Below are positions 193-6,081 of a stretch of DNA of 6,596 nucleotides, piece by piece. Under the pieces are notes generated by a model. That model was not told the DNA's origin and did no database searches. It was given only the letters and a program-made list of their open reading frames with translations. The stretch is taken from contig JAUXHY010000074.1 of assembly GCA_030621275.1 (NCBI GenBank), positions 1-6,596 on the forward strand, read 5' to 3'. The DNA is from a bacterium. Lineage in GTDB: Bacteria; Fidelibacterota; Marinisomatia; Marinisomatales; JAHJCW01. Each line of letters opens with the position of its first letter. Position 1 is the first letter of the stretch. Position numbers and translations under genes: made by a program.

Positions 193-861
193 ATGAAAAA
201 AGCGTTTATATTGATGATGATCCTTTCCATTGTGTTTATCGGTATTTTACCCGCACAAGGAATGGGATTTGGTGTTAAAGGTGGTATAAATATGGCAAAA
301 TGGACCGGTGATGATATAACAGAAATGACTGATGAAGGATTTGACCAAAAATATGTCACAGCCTTCTCTGTTGGTGGATTTCTAACATTACCTATAGGCA
401 ATGCTCTCACCATAAGACCTGAATTGCTTTACACACAAAATGGAACAAAATTTGAATATTCAGAAGATGATGGCGAACTATCCATGTCTTCGAAAATGAA
501 CTGGTTAAATATTCCTGTTCTTGCAGTTTTCAACTTAGGACCAGTTGGAATCGTTGCAGGACCGTATTTTGATCTTTTCCTTAATGGTAAGGCAAAATTT
601 GAAATGTCTTATGGTGGTCAAAGTTTTGATGAAGAAGAAGATATTGAGAGTGATGAAGTCCAAACATTGAATTATGGGTTAATATTTGGTGCTGCCTATG
701 GCATTACTAATAATATTGATGTAGAATTGAGATATTCTCAAGGTTTAAATAGTCCTGATAAAGAACCTGATGATTATGATAATACGTGGGGCGAATACGA
801 AGAATCTGATACAAAACCTAGCATGATTCAATTATTAATAAACTTCTATTTAAAGAAGTAA
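193..861 (+). CDS. PorT-family outer-membrane beta-barrel protein
   Basis: This 222-residue protein is probably exported and inserted in the outer membrane. Residues 1-23 form a typical signal peptide: a KK N-terminus, a hydrophobic core (FILMMILSIVFIGIL) and a likely signal peptidase I site near PAQG (20-23). The mature part starts with GFGVKGGINMA, typical of the OMP_b-brl_2/PorT family. Alternating amphipathic strands follow, for example 57-67, 71-81, 103-113, 117-129, 159-170 and 174-182, and the protein ends in a strand IQLLINFYLKK at the C-terminus. Acidic segments between strands (38-53, 87-97, 144-157, 188-207) look like surface loops. The start is set by AAGGAG 5 bases upstream, and the gene is closed by its own terminator, so it is probably monocistronic. 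Members of this family rarely have a known ligand; no specific role is claimed. Confidence 0.85.
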   Translation: MKKAFILMMILSIVFIGILPAQGMGFGVKGGINMAKWTGDDITEMTDEGFDQKYVTAFSVGGFLTLPIGNALTIRPELLYTQNGTKFEYSEDDGELSMSSKMNWLNIPVLAVFNLGPVGIVAGPYFDLFLNGKAKFEMSYGGQSFDEEEDIESDEVQTLNYGLIFGAAYGITNNIDVELRYSQGLNSPDKEPDDYDNTWGEYEESDTKPSMIQLLINFYLKK

Positions 862-879
862 TAAACCAAAAACATAATA

Positions 880-915
880 AATGCCTCTTTTATTTAGAAA
901 GGGGCATTTTTTTTT
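880..915 (+). terminator. Rho-independent terminator of the barrel gene
   Basis: An 11-bp stem with one G-T wobble (880-890 paired with 898-908) and a 7-base loop overlaps a run of nine T (907-915), 18 bases after the barrel gene's stop codon. On the - strand the hairpin is followed by only a loose T-rich stretch, so it might also weakly stop the converging secernin operon, for which no other terminator is visible. Confidence 0.93.
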
Positions 916-922
916 AATAAAT

Positions 923-1159
923 ATGATGTGTGGTAGAAGTAATATTACAGACCTAAGAGATAAAAATAATTCTAAAGTGCAACAACTGATTAAATCCTTT
1001 AATGAAAAATTTGAATCAACTCAATGCTATGAGCTAACAGGCTGCGATTTGGGAACAGAAGAAGGTCAGACTAAATATAATGAAAATAGATGCAATGAAT
1101 TGTGTGATAAGTTTGTATTTGAGACTATAGAATTAACATTGGATTTAATTGACGATTAA
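923..1159 (+). pseudogene. C-terminal remnant of a C_GCAxxG_C_C family (putative redox-active) protein
   Basis: From the first ATG after the terminator this frame encodes 78 residues with Cys at 3, 35, 41, 57 and 61. The order GRS (4-6), a helix KVQQLIKSFNEKF, then ESTQCYELTGCDL (31-43), then C-x3-C and KFVFETIELTLDLI, matches the C-terminal half of the C_GCAxxG_C_C family, where F-x-S-x-x-C-x-E-L-x-G-x-D and a late C-x-x-(F)V are conserved. The N-terminal half, with the defining C-x-GCAxxG motif and the glycine-rich CGA segment, is absent. Upstream lie only the terminator hairpin and an in-frame TAA at 878-880. No Shine-Dalgarno site precedes 923 or 926. The best reading is a truncated gene whose 5' half was deleted or replaced when it became joined to the barrel gene. 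A translated small Cys-rich protein remains possible. The family match is from memory. Confidence 0.62.
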
Positions 1160-1168
1160 CGAACAATC

Positions 1169-2488
1169 CTAAAGTACCATTTCAGCTTTCATATTTTGAG
1201 CTTTCCAATACCTTCTATAATTACTTTTCGGTTTCTTTTCTATCGGTAAGTCATTTAATTCATTCAGTATATAATCTTCAAACTGTTTGGATTTCTCAAA
1301 AGCGGAATTCGTTAGATCATAAAATTTATCTGAATCCATATTTATACTTTTATCATAGAATTCTTTTTCAAGCTTACTTCGTCGATTGTTTAATAATTGG
1401 TGACGCTTTTGAAAATCCATTAAAATAGTACGATGAAGTTTTTCGTGTTCCCACCAGAGAGAATTTGGAGTATATTTTCCTTCCGGTGTTGGTCCAATAT
1501 CCGGTAAAACATTATCATTAAACTGGATTGGTTTAAATATTGAGATGCATGGAGCTGAAGTTCCCGTCGCCCAATATGTTTGTTCATCCTTTTTCAATGA
1601 AGCTACCAAAGAGGAAGTTGATTGCGAGGCATGGCGCGCAATTTTATTGGCAGAGTGAGCACATACTTGATTCATTAAGAAATGGCTATCAGGAGTATAA
1701 TCCAATGAACCATGATTCCGGAGAATAGAAAATGCATCAGTTACAATCATTTTATTATTATAGCCAAGTTGTCCCATTGAACTCTGCCTTCGTGCATTAC
1801 ATCGTGAAAACGTAGTATAAAACCAATCGGAATAACATTCCGCAAAATGAAATGTATGCCCCTTTTTCAACCAACCCTTCTTCTGAGCATAATTAATTAA
1901 GTCTGGATGACTCAAATCATACTCTTCGCCAATAGTTAATCCATTACTTATAGCATAATAATCTTGCACCTTTTTTGCTACCCAAAGATGTGCGGAAGTT
2001 TCTAACACCCACGCTTCTGATGAATCTGTAATTATGAAACTATTATGATAAGTGAGCTTCTTATCTTCAAACCCGCAAGGTCCACCCTGTTCGAAATCAG
2101 CAAGTAACTCGATAATAGTTTCTAATGCCCTATGTGCAGTATCAGTCCGTTCCAATGCTAATCTTAGCAAATCCATTCCGGTAAGCCGACCCTTTTTTTC
2201 AGTAGGCATTTTTGTAAATACAGCTTCGTTACCAATAGTCACGCCCTTATCATTTGCGCCAATCTCAGCTCCCCACATCCAAAATGGTCTGCTAATCAAA
2301 ACTGAGTTTGTTTTCGCAACTTGTGGAATTTCCAAATATGTACATTCCAAAGACTTACCGTTAGAATATTCGGCAACCGGATGATATTCCAATACTTGAG
2401 CTTCATTCGGTTCTCGATCACTATTTTTACCAAATATTACTGATCCGTCATGAGTCATGCTTGGCATCGCTACAAAAGTATCACACAT
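1169..2488 (-). CDS. Secernin-like peptidase C69 family protein (Ntn-hydrolase)
   Basis: This 439-residue protein aligns by eye with animal secernins and bacterial C69 dipeptidases. It opens with M-C-D-T-F-V-A, and Cys2 would become the N-terminal nucleophile after Met removal, as in N-terminal-nucleophile hydrolases. Further family blocks are VIFGKNSDR (17-25), the CTYLEI block (49-54), SRPFWMWGAEIGAND (66-80), GVTIGNEAV (82-90), GMDLLRLALER (104-114), YHNSFIITD (147-155), AWVLETSAHLWVA (159-171) and ISNGLTI (180-186). There is no signal peptide, so it is cytoplasmic. C69 enzymes hydrolyse amide bonds of dipeptides or related compounds; the substrate here is unknown. The gene is last in a three-gene operon, starting 3 bases after the kinase-like gene, with only a weak AAGAGA upstream, which suggests translational coupling. 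The start is fixed by Cys2. The long C-terminal helical extension (about 345-415) also fits the secernin length. Confidence 0.9.
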   Translation of the reverse strand: MCDTFVAMPSMTHDGSVIFGKNSDREPNEAQVLEYHPVAEYSNGKSLECTYLEIPQVAKTNSVLISRPFWMWGAEIGANDKGVTIGNEAVFTKMPTEKKGRLTGMDLLRLALERTDTAHRALETIIELLADFEQGGPCGFEDKKLTYHNSFIITDSSEAWVLETSAHLWVAKKVQDYYAISNGLTIGEEYDLSHPDLINYAQKKGWLKKGHTFHFAECYSDWFYTTFSRCNARRQSSMGQLGYNNKMIVTDAFSILRNHGSLDYTPDSHFLMNQVCAHSANKIARHASQSTSSLVASLKKDEQTYWATGTSAPCISIFKPIQFNDNVLPDIGPTPEGKYTPNSLWWEHEKLHRTILMDFQKRHQLLNNRRSKLEKEFYDKSINMDSDKFYDLTNSAFEKSKQFEDYILNELNDLPIEKKPKSNYRRYWKAQNMKAEMVL

Positions 2489-2491
2489 AAT

Positions 2492-3406
2492 TTATCTCTT
2501 AATTTTACCTGGTAGAATAAATTCATATTGGCGACGTAAAATCTTTGTTGTAAGCCACCTGTCAAATTTTCGGAATGCTAAAAATAATGTCCAAATTAAC
2601 TTATCCTCTTTATAATACTTTTCCACTTCTTTAACACTGATGAAATTCCCATCATCTTTTAGATATTTATTAATTGTCTTAATAGCTGTTGGTATTAGGT
2701 CTGCACGTTGTTCTTTATAAAGATTGGCAATTAAATCCATATAAACTTGTCGATTGTTATAATAACGCCCCATTACATCTTTTAAGAAAAATAATTTCAA
2801 TATCCATCGTAAAAATGATGGAGCCGTCTTCAGAATCAAATCAGGATTTAATTGCTCTACTTCATCTAATTTAAAGAGTGGTGTACTTGTATCAATATAA
2901 AATATTTTATCATCTTCTGTTAATATCCAATTTGAAAGCTGACCGTCAATTGCTACTTCAATTTTGGGCATATTTTTAGAGTTAAAATCCCATACCTTTT
3001 CAATTTCAGTGCAAATTTTATTTAATATAGACTCAAATTGTTGAGCATTAAATGATTTCGTCAATTTATGAGCAAATCGTTCAGGATTATGTTTCTTTTG
3101 AATAATATACAAAACTACCGGTCTTTTTTTATGAATAATTATTTCGGTTTTATCATCCGGTAAATTCAATCCGATTTGTTTTAAATAATTACAATATGAA
3201 TTATAGATCTTTGTATAATCTTCTGCTAATTGCTGATTCGTAAATAATGGTAAACGTTTATAGGCATTTTCGTCATCTCCTTGTATCTCAAATACAGTTG
3301 ATATTTCACCATACCCAAGTATTTCTGCCGGAATGAGTGATTGCTCAATTGCTGTTGGAATTAATCCTTTTTCAAATTTATGCAATTGTGTTTTTGTTAA
3401 ACTCAT
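2492..3406 (-). CDS. Uncharacterised protein with kinase-like catalytic signature (possibly DUF6206 family)
   Basis: This is a 304-residue cytoplasmic protein with no signal peptide. Seen directly: a glycine-rich loop GYGEISTVFEI (31-41), AYKRLP with Lys50, DGQLSNWIL with Asp154 and Asn159, and YIDTSTP with Asp172. Asp-to-Asn is 5 and Asn-to-Asp is 13 residues, identical to D166/N171/D184 of protein kinase A and D190/N195/D208 of APH(3'). This implies a protein-kinase/aminoglycoside-kinase fold with ATP and metal sites. The His of HRD/HGD is not present (AID instead) and DFG reads DTS, so the substrate is not predictable and a pseudokinase is not excluded. The C-terminal third is helical, rich in aromatic and basic residues, and ends in RRQYEFILPGKIKR. 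I recall a family DUF6206 of this appearance but could not verify it. The start overlaps the aminotransferase stop (ATGA, 3403-3406), with GGAAAG (3419-3414) 7 bases before it. Confidence 0.8.
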   Translation of the reverse strand: MSLTKTQLHKFEKGLIPTAIEQSLIPAEILGYGEISTVFEIQGDDENAYKRLPLFTNQQLAEDYTKIYNSYCNYLKQIGLNLPDDKTEIIIHKKRPVVLYIIQKKHNPERFAHKLTKSFNAQQFESILNKICTEIEKVWDFNSKNMPKIEVAIDGQLSNWILTEDDKIFYIDTSTPLFKLDEVEQLNPDLILKTAPSFLRWILKLFFLKDVMGRYYNNRQVYMDLIANLYKEQRADLIPTAIKTINKYLKDDGNFISVKEVEKYYKEDKLIWTLFLAFRKFDRWLTTKILRRQYEFILPGKIKR

Positions 3407-4716
3407 GATAAATCTTTCCGACTAAATAATCTATTCTTCATTCTGTCCATTTTCTGTTTTGCTCCATATAATTTTCTCAGTTTTCGAGCTGATTTTAATG
3501 CCTTATCCAATTTATTTAACACAATATTTGCTTCATTAATTGTCATAGTTAGGGGTGGCAAAAATTGACATACAGATTTATCATTATTAGCGTAAACCAT
3601 CAACAAGCCCTCATTATAAGCTGTTTTTGTTAGTACCGGACCACATAATTCATCTTTCATTTCAATTCCCATCATTAGTCCCATTTGTCGCAATCCGATC
3701 AAAAAACCTTTGTGAGTATCTATTAATTTCGTAACACCTTGATAAAATTGCTCCGCTATTATATTCACATTATTCAAAAAGTTTGATGATGAAGATATTT
3801 CCAAAACACGTTTAGCCACCCGACAACCCAATTCTGATCCACCAAAAGTTGAAATATGTATAAATGGATCTTCATGAAATACTGATTCTAAAGGTTCACG
3901 GATCACAGTAGCAGATATCGGATAAATACCACCGGAAAGACCCTTCCCTATCACGAGGATATCCGGAATAATATCAAAATGTTCGAACGCCCATAATTTC
4001 CCTGTTCGTCCAAGTCCGGTTTGAACTTCATCCATAACTAACAATATTTGGTGCTCATCGCAAAGCTTTCTTACTCCCTGAATATATTCTTTATCAGGAA
4101 TTTTAATTCCGAGTGTTGCAGGAATAGTTTCTAAAATTATCGCTGCAGTATTTGTATCAGCAGCGTTATTAAGAGCATCTAAATCATTAAATTGAACTTG
4201 TTTAAATCCCGCTATTGATGATCTAAACGGTTCCCGATATTTTGCATCGCCTGCGGCTAAAGCTAAGCCGGTATGTCCATGATAACCACCCTTTGCTGAA
4301 ATGATATCAGATCTGTTTGTGTAACCACGCGCCACTTTAAGCGCGAGATCAATTGCTTCTCCGCCACTTACTCCAAATATAGTGTAATTAAGGTCTCCCG
4401 GTGTTAAATCCGATAGCATAGCAGCAAGTTCTGCCCGTTCACGACTAATTAAATGGTGATTCCCAATATCGAAGCTATTTAGAGATTCCTTTAGGACATT
4501 AATTATTTCAGAATTTCTATGTCCAAGATTAAATACACCTCCGTTACTATGAAGGTTGATAAGCTTTTTTGTTCCGTCTAAGTCATGGATATATGAACCA
4601 CTTCGGTCGCCCATTACAAAATCCATATTGTATTTTTTGAAAAATTTAACTTTCCCGCTTGATACAAATTTTTTGTAATGATCTATTGCAGTACGTTTTT
4701 CAGAAGATGCTTTCAT
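3403..4716 (-). CDS. Class III PLP-dependent aminotransferase family enzyme
   Basis: This 437-residue cytoplasmic enzyme has the usual class III (ornithine/GABA aminotransferase-like) length and order of motifs: GVFNLGHRNSEI (60-71), the phosphate-binding VSGGEAIDLALKVAR (116-130), GGYHGHTGLAL (143-152), MDEVQTGLGRTGK (228-240) with Asp229 contacting the PLP ring nitrogen, IGKGLSGGIYPISA (256-269) with Schiff-base Lys258, STFGG (289-293) with Thr290 for the PLP phosphate of the partner subunit, GLMMGIEM (346-353) and FLPPLTMTINEAN (385-397). The usual EP-I-x-GEGG segment reads ETIPATLGI (196-204), pointing to a non-standard amino donor or to a related reaction such as phospho-lyase activity. 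A basic tail (409-437) extends past the fold. It is the first gene of the operon. No Shine-Dalgarno site precedes its ATG, and no convincing promoter is seen in the 71 bases up to the repeats. The fold is certain, the substrate unknown. Confidence 0.92.
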   Translation of the reverse strand: MKASSEKRTAIDHYKKFVSSGKVKFFKKYNMDFVMGDRSGSYIHDLDGTKKLINLHSNGGVFNLGHRNSEIINVLKESLNSFDIGNHHLISRERAELAAMLSDLTPGDLNYTIFGVSGGEAIDLALKVARGYTNRSDIISAKGGYHGHTGLALAAGDAKYREPFRSSIAGFKQVQFNDLDALNNAADTNTAAIILETIPATLGIKIPDKEYIQGVRKLCDEHQILLVMDEVQTGLGRTGKLWAFEHFDIIPDILVIGKGLSGGIYPISATVIREPLESVFHEDPFIHISTFGGSELGCRVAKRVLEISSSSNFLNNVNIIAEQFYQGVTKLIDTHKGFLIGLRQMGLMMGIEMKDELCGPVLTKTAYNEGLLMVYANNDKSVCQFLPPLTMTINEANIVLNKLDKALKSARKLRKLYGAKQKMDRMKNRLFSRKDLS

Positions 4717-4971: not shown

Positions 4972-6081
4972 TTAAGTAATAAAACGTGGCAATACTTTTG
5001 CAGTTAATTCTTCAAGTAAATTTTCACCGTCTTTAATAGCTTGTTTTACCGGAACATTTAAATCCCTACAAATAGAATAACAAGCTTGAATTCCATGTTT
5101 TCTTGCTATTGTTTGATCAATAGTGTGATCGCCACATAAAGCAATAATTGGAGTTTTTTTATTTGATACATATTCAGCCACTCCAAAGGGGACTTTCCCT
5201 TGTAATGATTGATTATCCATTCGCCCTTCACCCGTAATTATTAAATCAGCATCCTTAACAATTTCATTAAAATTTAAAACATCCAAAATTAATTCTATAC
5301 CTTTATGTAATTTTGCATTACAAAATGCCATTAATCCCCAACCCATACCACCGGCTGCACCGGCGCCTGGATAATTTGGATCTACATCGGGTATCATATC
5401 AGCAAGATGCATCAATCCTTTATCAAGGAATTCAATTTGATTTGGAGTTGCTCCTTTTTGTGCGGCATAGACTTGCGCTGCACCTCTAGATCCTGTTAAT
5501 ACATTTTTTACATCACAGGCTACGTCGATTTGAACAGTACTAACTCTAGGATCAACTAAAGATTTATCAATTGATTTAATATCATTAAGGAACCCTCCTG
5601 TAATCGGAGAATTGACTCCATTAAATTGGACACCAAGGGCTTGTGCCAATCCGGCACCACCATCATTTGTAGAACTGCCCCCAATCCCAATAACTATTCG
5701 ATTTACATTTGCGTCAAGTGCAATCCGTATCAATTCACCAACGCCAGAAGTTGTAGTTTTCAACGGATTCCTTTTGCTCTCAGGTACTAATTGCAATCCG
5801 GCTGCTTGGGCAAGTTCAATTACAGCTAAATTTTTATCATGGAATAAAGCCCAACTTGCTTTTCGCGATTCTCCCAAAGGACCAGTTATGTTAGAATATT
5901 GTTTTTGTCCATTCATCGCATTTAAGAATGTGTCAACAGTTCCTTCACCACCATCTGCAATTGGACAAGCTACAATTTCCGCATTTTCTGCAATTCTTGA
6001 AATACCTCTCGCAATAGCATGAGCAGCCATAATTGCACTCATTGAATCTTTAAAACTATCTACAGCAATAACTATTTTCAT
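4972..6081 (-). CDS. Glycerate 2-kinase (GlxK/GarK family)
   Basis: The protein transfers phosphate from ATP to D-glycerate, in this family normally giving 2-phosphoglycerate, which feeds glycolate/glyoxylate or sugar-acid breakdown into glycolysis. It has 369 residues, close to the usual length of about 375-385. Family motifs run the whole length: MKIVIAVDSFKDSMSA at the start, ACPIADGGEGTVD (38-50), GIGGSSTNDGGAGLAQALG (132-150), TGSRGAAQVYAAQKGA (196-211), GAGAAGGMGWGL (239-250), LIITGEGRMDNQSLQGK (280-296) and IIALCGDH (312-319). There is no signal peptide. The start lies 22 bases after the arsM stop with only a weak GGTG before it, so co-transcription and re-initiation are plausible. It is unrelated by sequence to the DeoR- or PdxB-linked kinases. 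The exact product (2- versus 3-phosphoglycerate) cannot be read from the sequence. Confidence 0.95.
   Translation of the reverse strand: MKIVIAVDSFKDSMSAIMAAHAIARGISRIAENAEIVACPIADGGEGTVDTFLNAMNGQKQYSNITGPLGESRKASWALFHDKNLAVIELAQAAGLQLVPESKRNPLKTTTSGVGELIRIALDANVNRIVIGIGGSSTNDGGAGLAQALGVQFNGVNSPITGGFLNDIKSIDKSLVDPRVSTVQIDVACDVKNVLTGSRGAAQVYAAQKGATPNQIEFLDKGLMHLADMIPDVDPNYPGAGAAGGMGWGLMAFCNAKLHKGIELILDVLNFNEIVKDADLIITGEGRMDNQSLQGKVPFGVAEYVSNKKTPIIALCGDHTIDQTIARKHGIQACYSICRDLNVPVKQAIKDGENLLEELTAKVLPRFIT

Follow-up and report, generated by a model that had tools for sequence, protein, structure and literature searches.

The breakdown of hydroxylysine and of ethanolamine phosphate follows a logic in which a kinase is joined to a class III pyridoxal phosphate (PLP) enzyme that needs no amino acceptor. 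The phospho-lyase of the 5-phosphohydroxylysine and ethanolamine-phosphate system is mentioned in PMC8154272. Here, we describe a three-gene operon in a 6,596-nucleotide stretch (the window; contig JAUXHY010000074.1) of a Fidelibacterota assembly of 1.54 Mb in 274 contigs; the operon encodes a class III PLP enzyme (AMT), a DUF6206 protein predicted to be a kinase (KIN), and a secernin-like homologue of the N-terminal nucleophile (Ntn) hydrolases (C69). Like the hydroxylysine kinase/phospho-lyase pair and the ethanolamine-phosphate phospho-lyase system, the locus would pair a kinase with a class III PLP enzyme; unlike these systems, its putative kinase belongs to DUF6206, its PLP enzyme has Gln rather than Lys at a diagnostic position, and a C69 hydrolase is added. 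Proteins of the PRK06148/PRK06149 type also pair an APH kinase with a class III PLP enzyme, and such an APH kinase is found beside C69 in Thioclava; unlike the window operon, these fusions (P0136, an example by its domains) have no DUF6206, and the window AMT branches far away from P0136.

The operon is real and conserved, and the coupling of its three genes is confirmed. We propose, at a little less than an even chance, that the trio constitutes a catabolic module: an amino compound would be freed from an amide by C69 or another hydrolase, its hydroxyl group would be phosphorylated by KIN (or an APH kinase), and AMT would use PLP to eliminate phosphate and ammonia, with an aldehyde or ketone as the product. 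The features of the operon, in window coordinates, are as follows.

3403..4716, minus strand: AMT, a class III PLP enzyme of the Gln384 subfamily and predicted lyase (437 aa; PF00202)
3943..3945, minus strand: codon of AMT Lys258, the predicted PLP Schiff-base lysine
3565..3567, minus strand: codon of AMT Gln384, at the transaminase Arg column
3403..3406, minus strand: ATGA, the 4-base overlap of the AMT stop and KIN start (read from the sequence)
2492..3406, minus strand: KIN, a DUF6206 protein with a protein-kinase-like fold, predicted small-molecule kinase (304 aa)
3257..3259, minus strand: codon of KIN Lys50, the predicted ATP-binding Lys
2945..2947, minus strand: codon of KIN Asp154, the predicted catalytic Asp, with Asn159 and Asp172 downstream
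2492..2527, minus strand: C-terminal tail of KIN, residues 294-304 and the stop, with four nearly invariant residues
1169..2488, minus strand: C69, a secernin-like Ntn-hydrolase homologue and predicted amide hydrolase (439 aa; PF03577)
2483..2485, minus strand: codon of C69 Cys2, predicted to become the N-terminal nucleophile once Met is cleaved off

The 4-base overlap between AMT and KIN is also present in loci L002 and L009, and KIN is separated from C69 by only 3 bases (2489-2491). Across a phylum sample of 245 genomes, own genome included, KIN (called at E 1e-10) is present in 36, the AMT subfamily (E 1e-120) in 34, and the C69 subfamily (at least 356 bits) in 37, with seven genomes that hold only weaker C69 relatives (263-342 bits) excluded from the last count. 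KIN and AMT occur together in 33 genomes and KIN and C69 in 32; with shared ancestry ignored, Fisher p-values for co-occurrence in the 245 genomes are approximately 3e-36 (DUF6206 with AMT) and 2e-30 (DUF6206 with C69). KIN occurs without AMT in G069, G184, and G244, and AMT without KIN in G150; KIN occurs without C69 in G028, G068, G069, and G222, and C69 without KIN in G019, G092, G226, G230, and G242. AMT adjoins 33 of the 39 KIN places and C69 adjoins 31, where adjacency means a same-strand distance of no more than 400 bases between match ends, and where some KIN places are gene pieces at contig ends. The distribution of KIN is patchy, since one genus supplies 16 of the 36 KIN genomes and KIN is found in 17 of 84 genera. 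G070 carries a pair of diverged AMT-KIN operons, of which one includes C69 and the other lacks it (L047, L048); in G184, a single contig, the AMT beside KIN-C69 is only a 121-aa piece (L046:9148-9513).

Beyond the phylum, KIN was identified in 19/395 genomes from the phylum of a Deltaproteobacteria metagenome-assembled genome (MAG), 2/395 from that of a Bacteroidales MAG, and 3/40 from that of a Caldithrix MAG, the centre genome being included each time. These draws yielded 19, 1, and 2 loci, respectively, which together with two Deltaproteobacteria MAGs (G246 and G250) make up 24 outside loci; AMT is adjacent to DUF6206 at 20 of these and C69 is near four, which identifies AMT and KIN as the core and C69 as optional. 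Further loci outside this set comprise two with AMT and no C69 (L004, with AMT 435 bp upstream, and L012) and two with both AMT and C69 (L011 and L014). The last of these is a second operon copy in G246, where both copies (L005, L014) include C69. KIN had no plasmid match at E 1e-3. The original prediction had tied its case to the homologues of KIN not occurring mostly without the other two genes and to the gene order not being restricted to this genome. The order does recur elsewhere; the association holds for AMT both within the phylum (33/39) and outside it (20/24), but for C69 it gives way outside the phylum (4/24).

Natural fusions join the same partners. In a first search, the three proteins were joined as the query and scoring was confined to the 7993 candidates with the most words in common; in a second, 120 of 4234 matches were listed. 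P0121 carries DUF6206 ahead of AMT and shares 42% identity with KIN across 319 columns, and the reverse order (AMT first) is found in P0125, from Ruegeria meonggei, and, among the matches listed, in P0137 from another Ruegeria. In three C69-AMT fusions (P0122, P0123, and P0124) C69 always comes first; the C69 part of P0123 is 37% identical to that of the window, and P0122 and P0124 start with the same sort of sequence. P0123 and P0124 begin with MCDT (the listed start of P0122 falls just past that point), so that Cys2 would be free, a requirement for an N-terminal nucleophile. AMT is also fused to a Pfam APH kinase in P0126 and, by precomputed domains and among the matches listed, in P0197, P0233, and P0251. 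Free APH proteins of Pseudomonas sp. MPC6, which themselves adjoin or are near AMTs of the subfamily, share 44-46% identity with the APH domain of P0126.

In a FastTree tree of 72 sequences, the AMT subfamily splits into two clades, with a rooting that is weak owing to long outgroup branches and some low-support nodes. DUF6206 partners are found in both clades; APH partners are represented in the first by the four fusions and PsA, and in the second once, by PsB, two genes away. With partners of both kinds across both clades, it seems that the kinase position was filled anew or that losses sorted its occupants, a kinase being retained.

AMT matches Aminotran_3 (PF00202) at 275.8 bits, as had been proposed for a class III PLP enzyme. 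In an alignment of 182 rows, which includes repeats and six outgroups and was compiled from sequences resembling either the window AMT or P0125, the predicted Schiff-base Lys258 is retained in 181 rows, with one gap (it is also invariant in a 10-sequence alignment, A2), and Asp229 and Gln232 in all 182. The subfamily shares DIGNHH-like and GKGLSGG-like segments. The Arg before the PPL segment, the mark of 2-oxoglutarate-dependent class III transaminases, holds the carboxylate of 2-oxoglutarate; AMT has Gln384 in its place. Gln occupies this column in 176/182 rows, that is, in all 176 subfamily rows, while the six outgroup rows have five Arg and one Lys. Arg is present here in YgjG and PigE, and Lys in the solved phospho-lyases 6tor and 5g4i, which, like AMT, are without the transaminase Arg.

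Judged by sequence, AMT represents a distinct class III subfamily that falls outside the ETNPPL/PHYKPL group. The solved structures nearest to it (best 60 of 193) are those of the putrescine aminotransferase YgjG (232-234 bits), although YgjG has Arg where AMT has Gln384; YgjG, ArgD, and PigE lead the matches, and 6tor and 5g4i are not among the best 60 of 193. An ETNPPL/PHYKPL affiliation of the PLP enzyme by sequence is thus not supported, whereas the analogy to kinase/phospho-lyase pairs gained strength from the AMT-APH fusions and the missing Arg. Compared with another class III "aminotransferase" that proved to be a lyase through its gene context, AMT scores 204.5 bits against a cut-off of 525; that lyase belongs to a different subfamily and has no kinase.

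The main rival explanation is that AMT is a genuine omega-transaminase of a phosphorylated or not-yet-phosphorylated amine, using pyruvate, an aldehyde, or another acceptor for which no Arg is required; the kinase would then trap or activate the substrate, and an aldehyde dehydrogenase would finish the conversion. The best matches of AMT (putrescine aminotransferase, ArgD, and PigE models, and the YgjG structures) are consistent with this, as is an aldehyde dehydrogenase gene in L062, whose open reading frame (ORF) directly follows C69 with no gap. The replacement of Arg by Gln in 176/176 subfamily rows argues against it, as does the recurrence of a kinase partner from two families that Pfam keeps apart, and we consider a transaminase unlikely, if far from negligible. 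The pathway first proposed for the trio (release, phosphorylation, then transamination or elimination) stands in part, with transamination the less likely half.

KIN matches DUF6206 (PF19709) at 68.4 bits (cut-off 30.4), a family for which a single search of a protein set clustered at 90% gave 3638 matches. The kinase layout first read from the KIN sequence is supported: the predicted fold is protein-kinase-like, and Lys50, Asp154, Asn159, and Asp172 are each present in 178/178 DUF6206 sequences, near-duplicates included. In kinases these positions supply the Lys, the catalytic Asp, the Asn, and the metal-binding Asp, respectively. No APH (PF01636) match to KIN was obtained up to E 1. The tail is strongly conserved in the same 178 sequences (Tyr294, 176; Leu298, 175; Pro299, 174; Arg304, 176), and residues 300-304 are modelled with pLDDT under 50. 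KIN is predicted to be a kinase acting on a small molecule. In L106 (7431-9887), an 818-aa ORF carries DUF6206 at its C-terminal end, with no Pfam match to its first part and no AMT nearby; in L105, a DUF6206 gene without AMT is divergent from an amidase gene.

Another possibility is that DUF6206 regulates or chaperones AMT, as a protein-kinase-like or PRPK-like protein whose conserved C-terminal tail would bind the partner. Against this, APH(2'') and LicA score near PRPK in the fold comparison, and APH-type kinases replace DUF6206 in fusions with the same AMT subfamily, which indicates a metabolite substrate; we regard such a role as quite unlikely. In the AlphaFold model of the P0121 fusion (pTM 0.53; residues 304-340 with pLDDT under 50) there was no sign of the KIN tail docking on AMT, the model being of a single chain, whereas class III PLP enzymes should be dimers.

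The identification of the third protein as a C69 homologue was also upheld, with Peptidase_C69 (PF03577) matched at 33.4 bits against a cut-off of 23. Like the secernins and C69 dipeptidases, it has C69 homology and a Cys-Asp-Thr start, the latter in 35/35 rows (repeats included), with the Cys preceded by Met in 34 and by Val, read as a GTG start, in one. Unlike them, it has operon partners and falls far below the C69 dipeptidase equivalog (NF033678; 34.6 against a cut-off of 250). Across 329 aa it shares 40% identity with a C69 protein of a green alga.

We infer kinase activity for KIN, lyase rather than transaminase chemistry for AMT, the order of the steps, and the class of substrate. The likeliest substrates would be amino alcohols, derived from peptides or bound as amides, or hydroxylated diamino acids resembling hydroxylysine. 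The C69 step can be absent, and would perhaps be replaced by that of another peptidase or amidase. Peptidase, amidase, and transporter genes near the operon hint at catabolism of peptides or amides. On a Thioclava plasmid, C69 (33% identical to that of the window) lies beside an APH kinase, an amidase, and an ABC transporter; this kinase has its nearest counterpart in the kinase portion, at one end, of the PRK06148 model (187 bits, where the whole-model cut-off is 1128). A GntR-FCD regulator is near the operon in L005/L111 and L006/L110, followed in the two profiled loci, L005 and L110, by a DAO oxidoreductase and Opp/Dpp transporter genes, and M28 peptidases are found close to the operon in L008, L051, and the L054 group. 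Two rhizobial plasmids have no kinase gene beside AMT; there, AMT is directly preceded by a gene of the alkaline phosphatase family, which follows a peptide-type ABC transporter and on one of the plasmids was profiled as a type I phosphodiesterase. For these rhizobial loci, phosphonate breakdown of the PhnA type was rejected on a score of 36 bits (cut-off 407.55). In one genus (L053-L061) the trio sits inside a long co-directional run, which in L054 encodes a PrmA methyltransferase, an AAA ATPase, an M28 peptidase, secretion-tail and TonB-plug domains, and several products without a match; a peptide transporter was dropped as an explanation of this run, since the Pfam matches in L054 show other genes. 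Sugar nucleotidyltransferase-like genes downstream in L108/L109 do not point to one substrate. A biosynthetic cluster for an amino-modified metabolite or lipid head group, with C69 as an acyltransferase or deprotecting hydrolase, would accord with a weak match of C69 to a C45 acyltransferase/hydrolase profile (28.2 bits against a cut-off of 85), but peptide-type transporters, the GntR-FCD regulator, and the aldehyde dehydrogenase and oxidoreductase neighbours indicate catabolism and make it very improbable.

Several observations weigh against a catabolic module ending in phosphate elimination. The closest relatives of AMT with a solved structure are true transaminases (YgjG), and its residue is Gln rather than the Lys of the phospho-lyases. 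Outside the phylum, C69 is missing from the vicinity of most DUF6206 loci, and four of the 24 are without AMT. The tree includes 11 single AMTs with unknown neighbours, the subfamily AMT of a Burkholderia plasmid (L117) showed no partner by comparison with the partner set, and a GHMP kinase gene lies approximately 8 kb upstream of one rhizobial AMT, on the plasmid other than that of the profiled phosphodiesterase. The P0121 fusion model has no ordered linker or tail. Several neighbours are at odds with a single pathway: in L107, AMT-KIN is flanked by Trp dioxygenase-like and kynureninase genes, and in L096 the operon is downstream of ribosomal L17, with RNA polymerase genes upstream.

In the literature searched, which omits most subscription papers, we found no description of DUF6206, of the AMT/kinase/C69 trio, of an operon joining a secernin and an aminotransferase, or of one combining Peptidase_C69, an aminotransferase, and a kinase; the pathway logic is known, and these proteins and their combination were not found described there. 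That DUF6206 amino-alcohol kinases, Gln384 phospho-lyases, and secernin-type C69 hydrolases supplying the amine form an undescribed and widespread pathway is a doubtful extension of the proposal. If it is true, the Gln384 enzymes would be a large new family of phospho-lyases, and the secernins would acquire their first substrate class; substrates of the human secernins are described as still elusive in parts of a 2022 review (PMC9140057). DUF6206, a domain of unknown function, gains a hypothesis of function, and secernin-like hydrolases are linked to partners that narrow their substrate. The analysis also suggests that many proteins named putrescine or acetylornithine aminotransferase may be misnamed. 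With a natural fusion in Ruegeria, a named marine bacterium, the idea can be put to a direct test there.

The remaining genes of the window serve as an internal control, and in the compared loci they do not travel with the operon.

4972..6081, minus strand: glycerate kinase, 255 bp upstream of AMT (PF02595, Gly_kinase; 439 bits)
193-861, plus strand: outer-membrane beta-barrel protein (OMP_b-brl_2), facing the operon
881-1159, plus strand: short ORF whose match to the C_GCAxxG_C_C redox family is confined to the later part (45-115 of 118), apparently truncated

The two plus-strand genes were seen in none of the compared loci. A methyltransferase gene, upstream on the same strand as AMT and cut by the window edge, recurs among these loci in L002; its other occurrences, on the opposite strand, are limited to L007 and to L003/L047, a single contig. 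L002 is also the one compared locus in which the glycerate kinase recurs, likewise upstream of AMT; L002 looks like a same-genus contig of L016. The interval between the glycerate kinase and AMT has no terminator-like site, and promoter-like sites occur in it at the level of shuffled sequence. In L092 (7760-9148) a glycerate kinase of the DUF4147-MOFRL type, non-homologous to the Gly_kinase of the window, lies between KIN and C69; no further glycerate kinase was seen beside the operon among profiled neighbours or genes resembling the window kinase, the only ones in which it would be detectable. The glycerate kinase of the window is possibly a member of the pathway, and the presence of two unrelated glycerate kinases in distant genomes is a possible hint that glycerate is a product.

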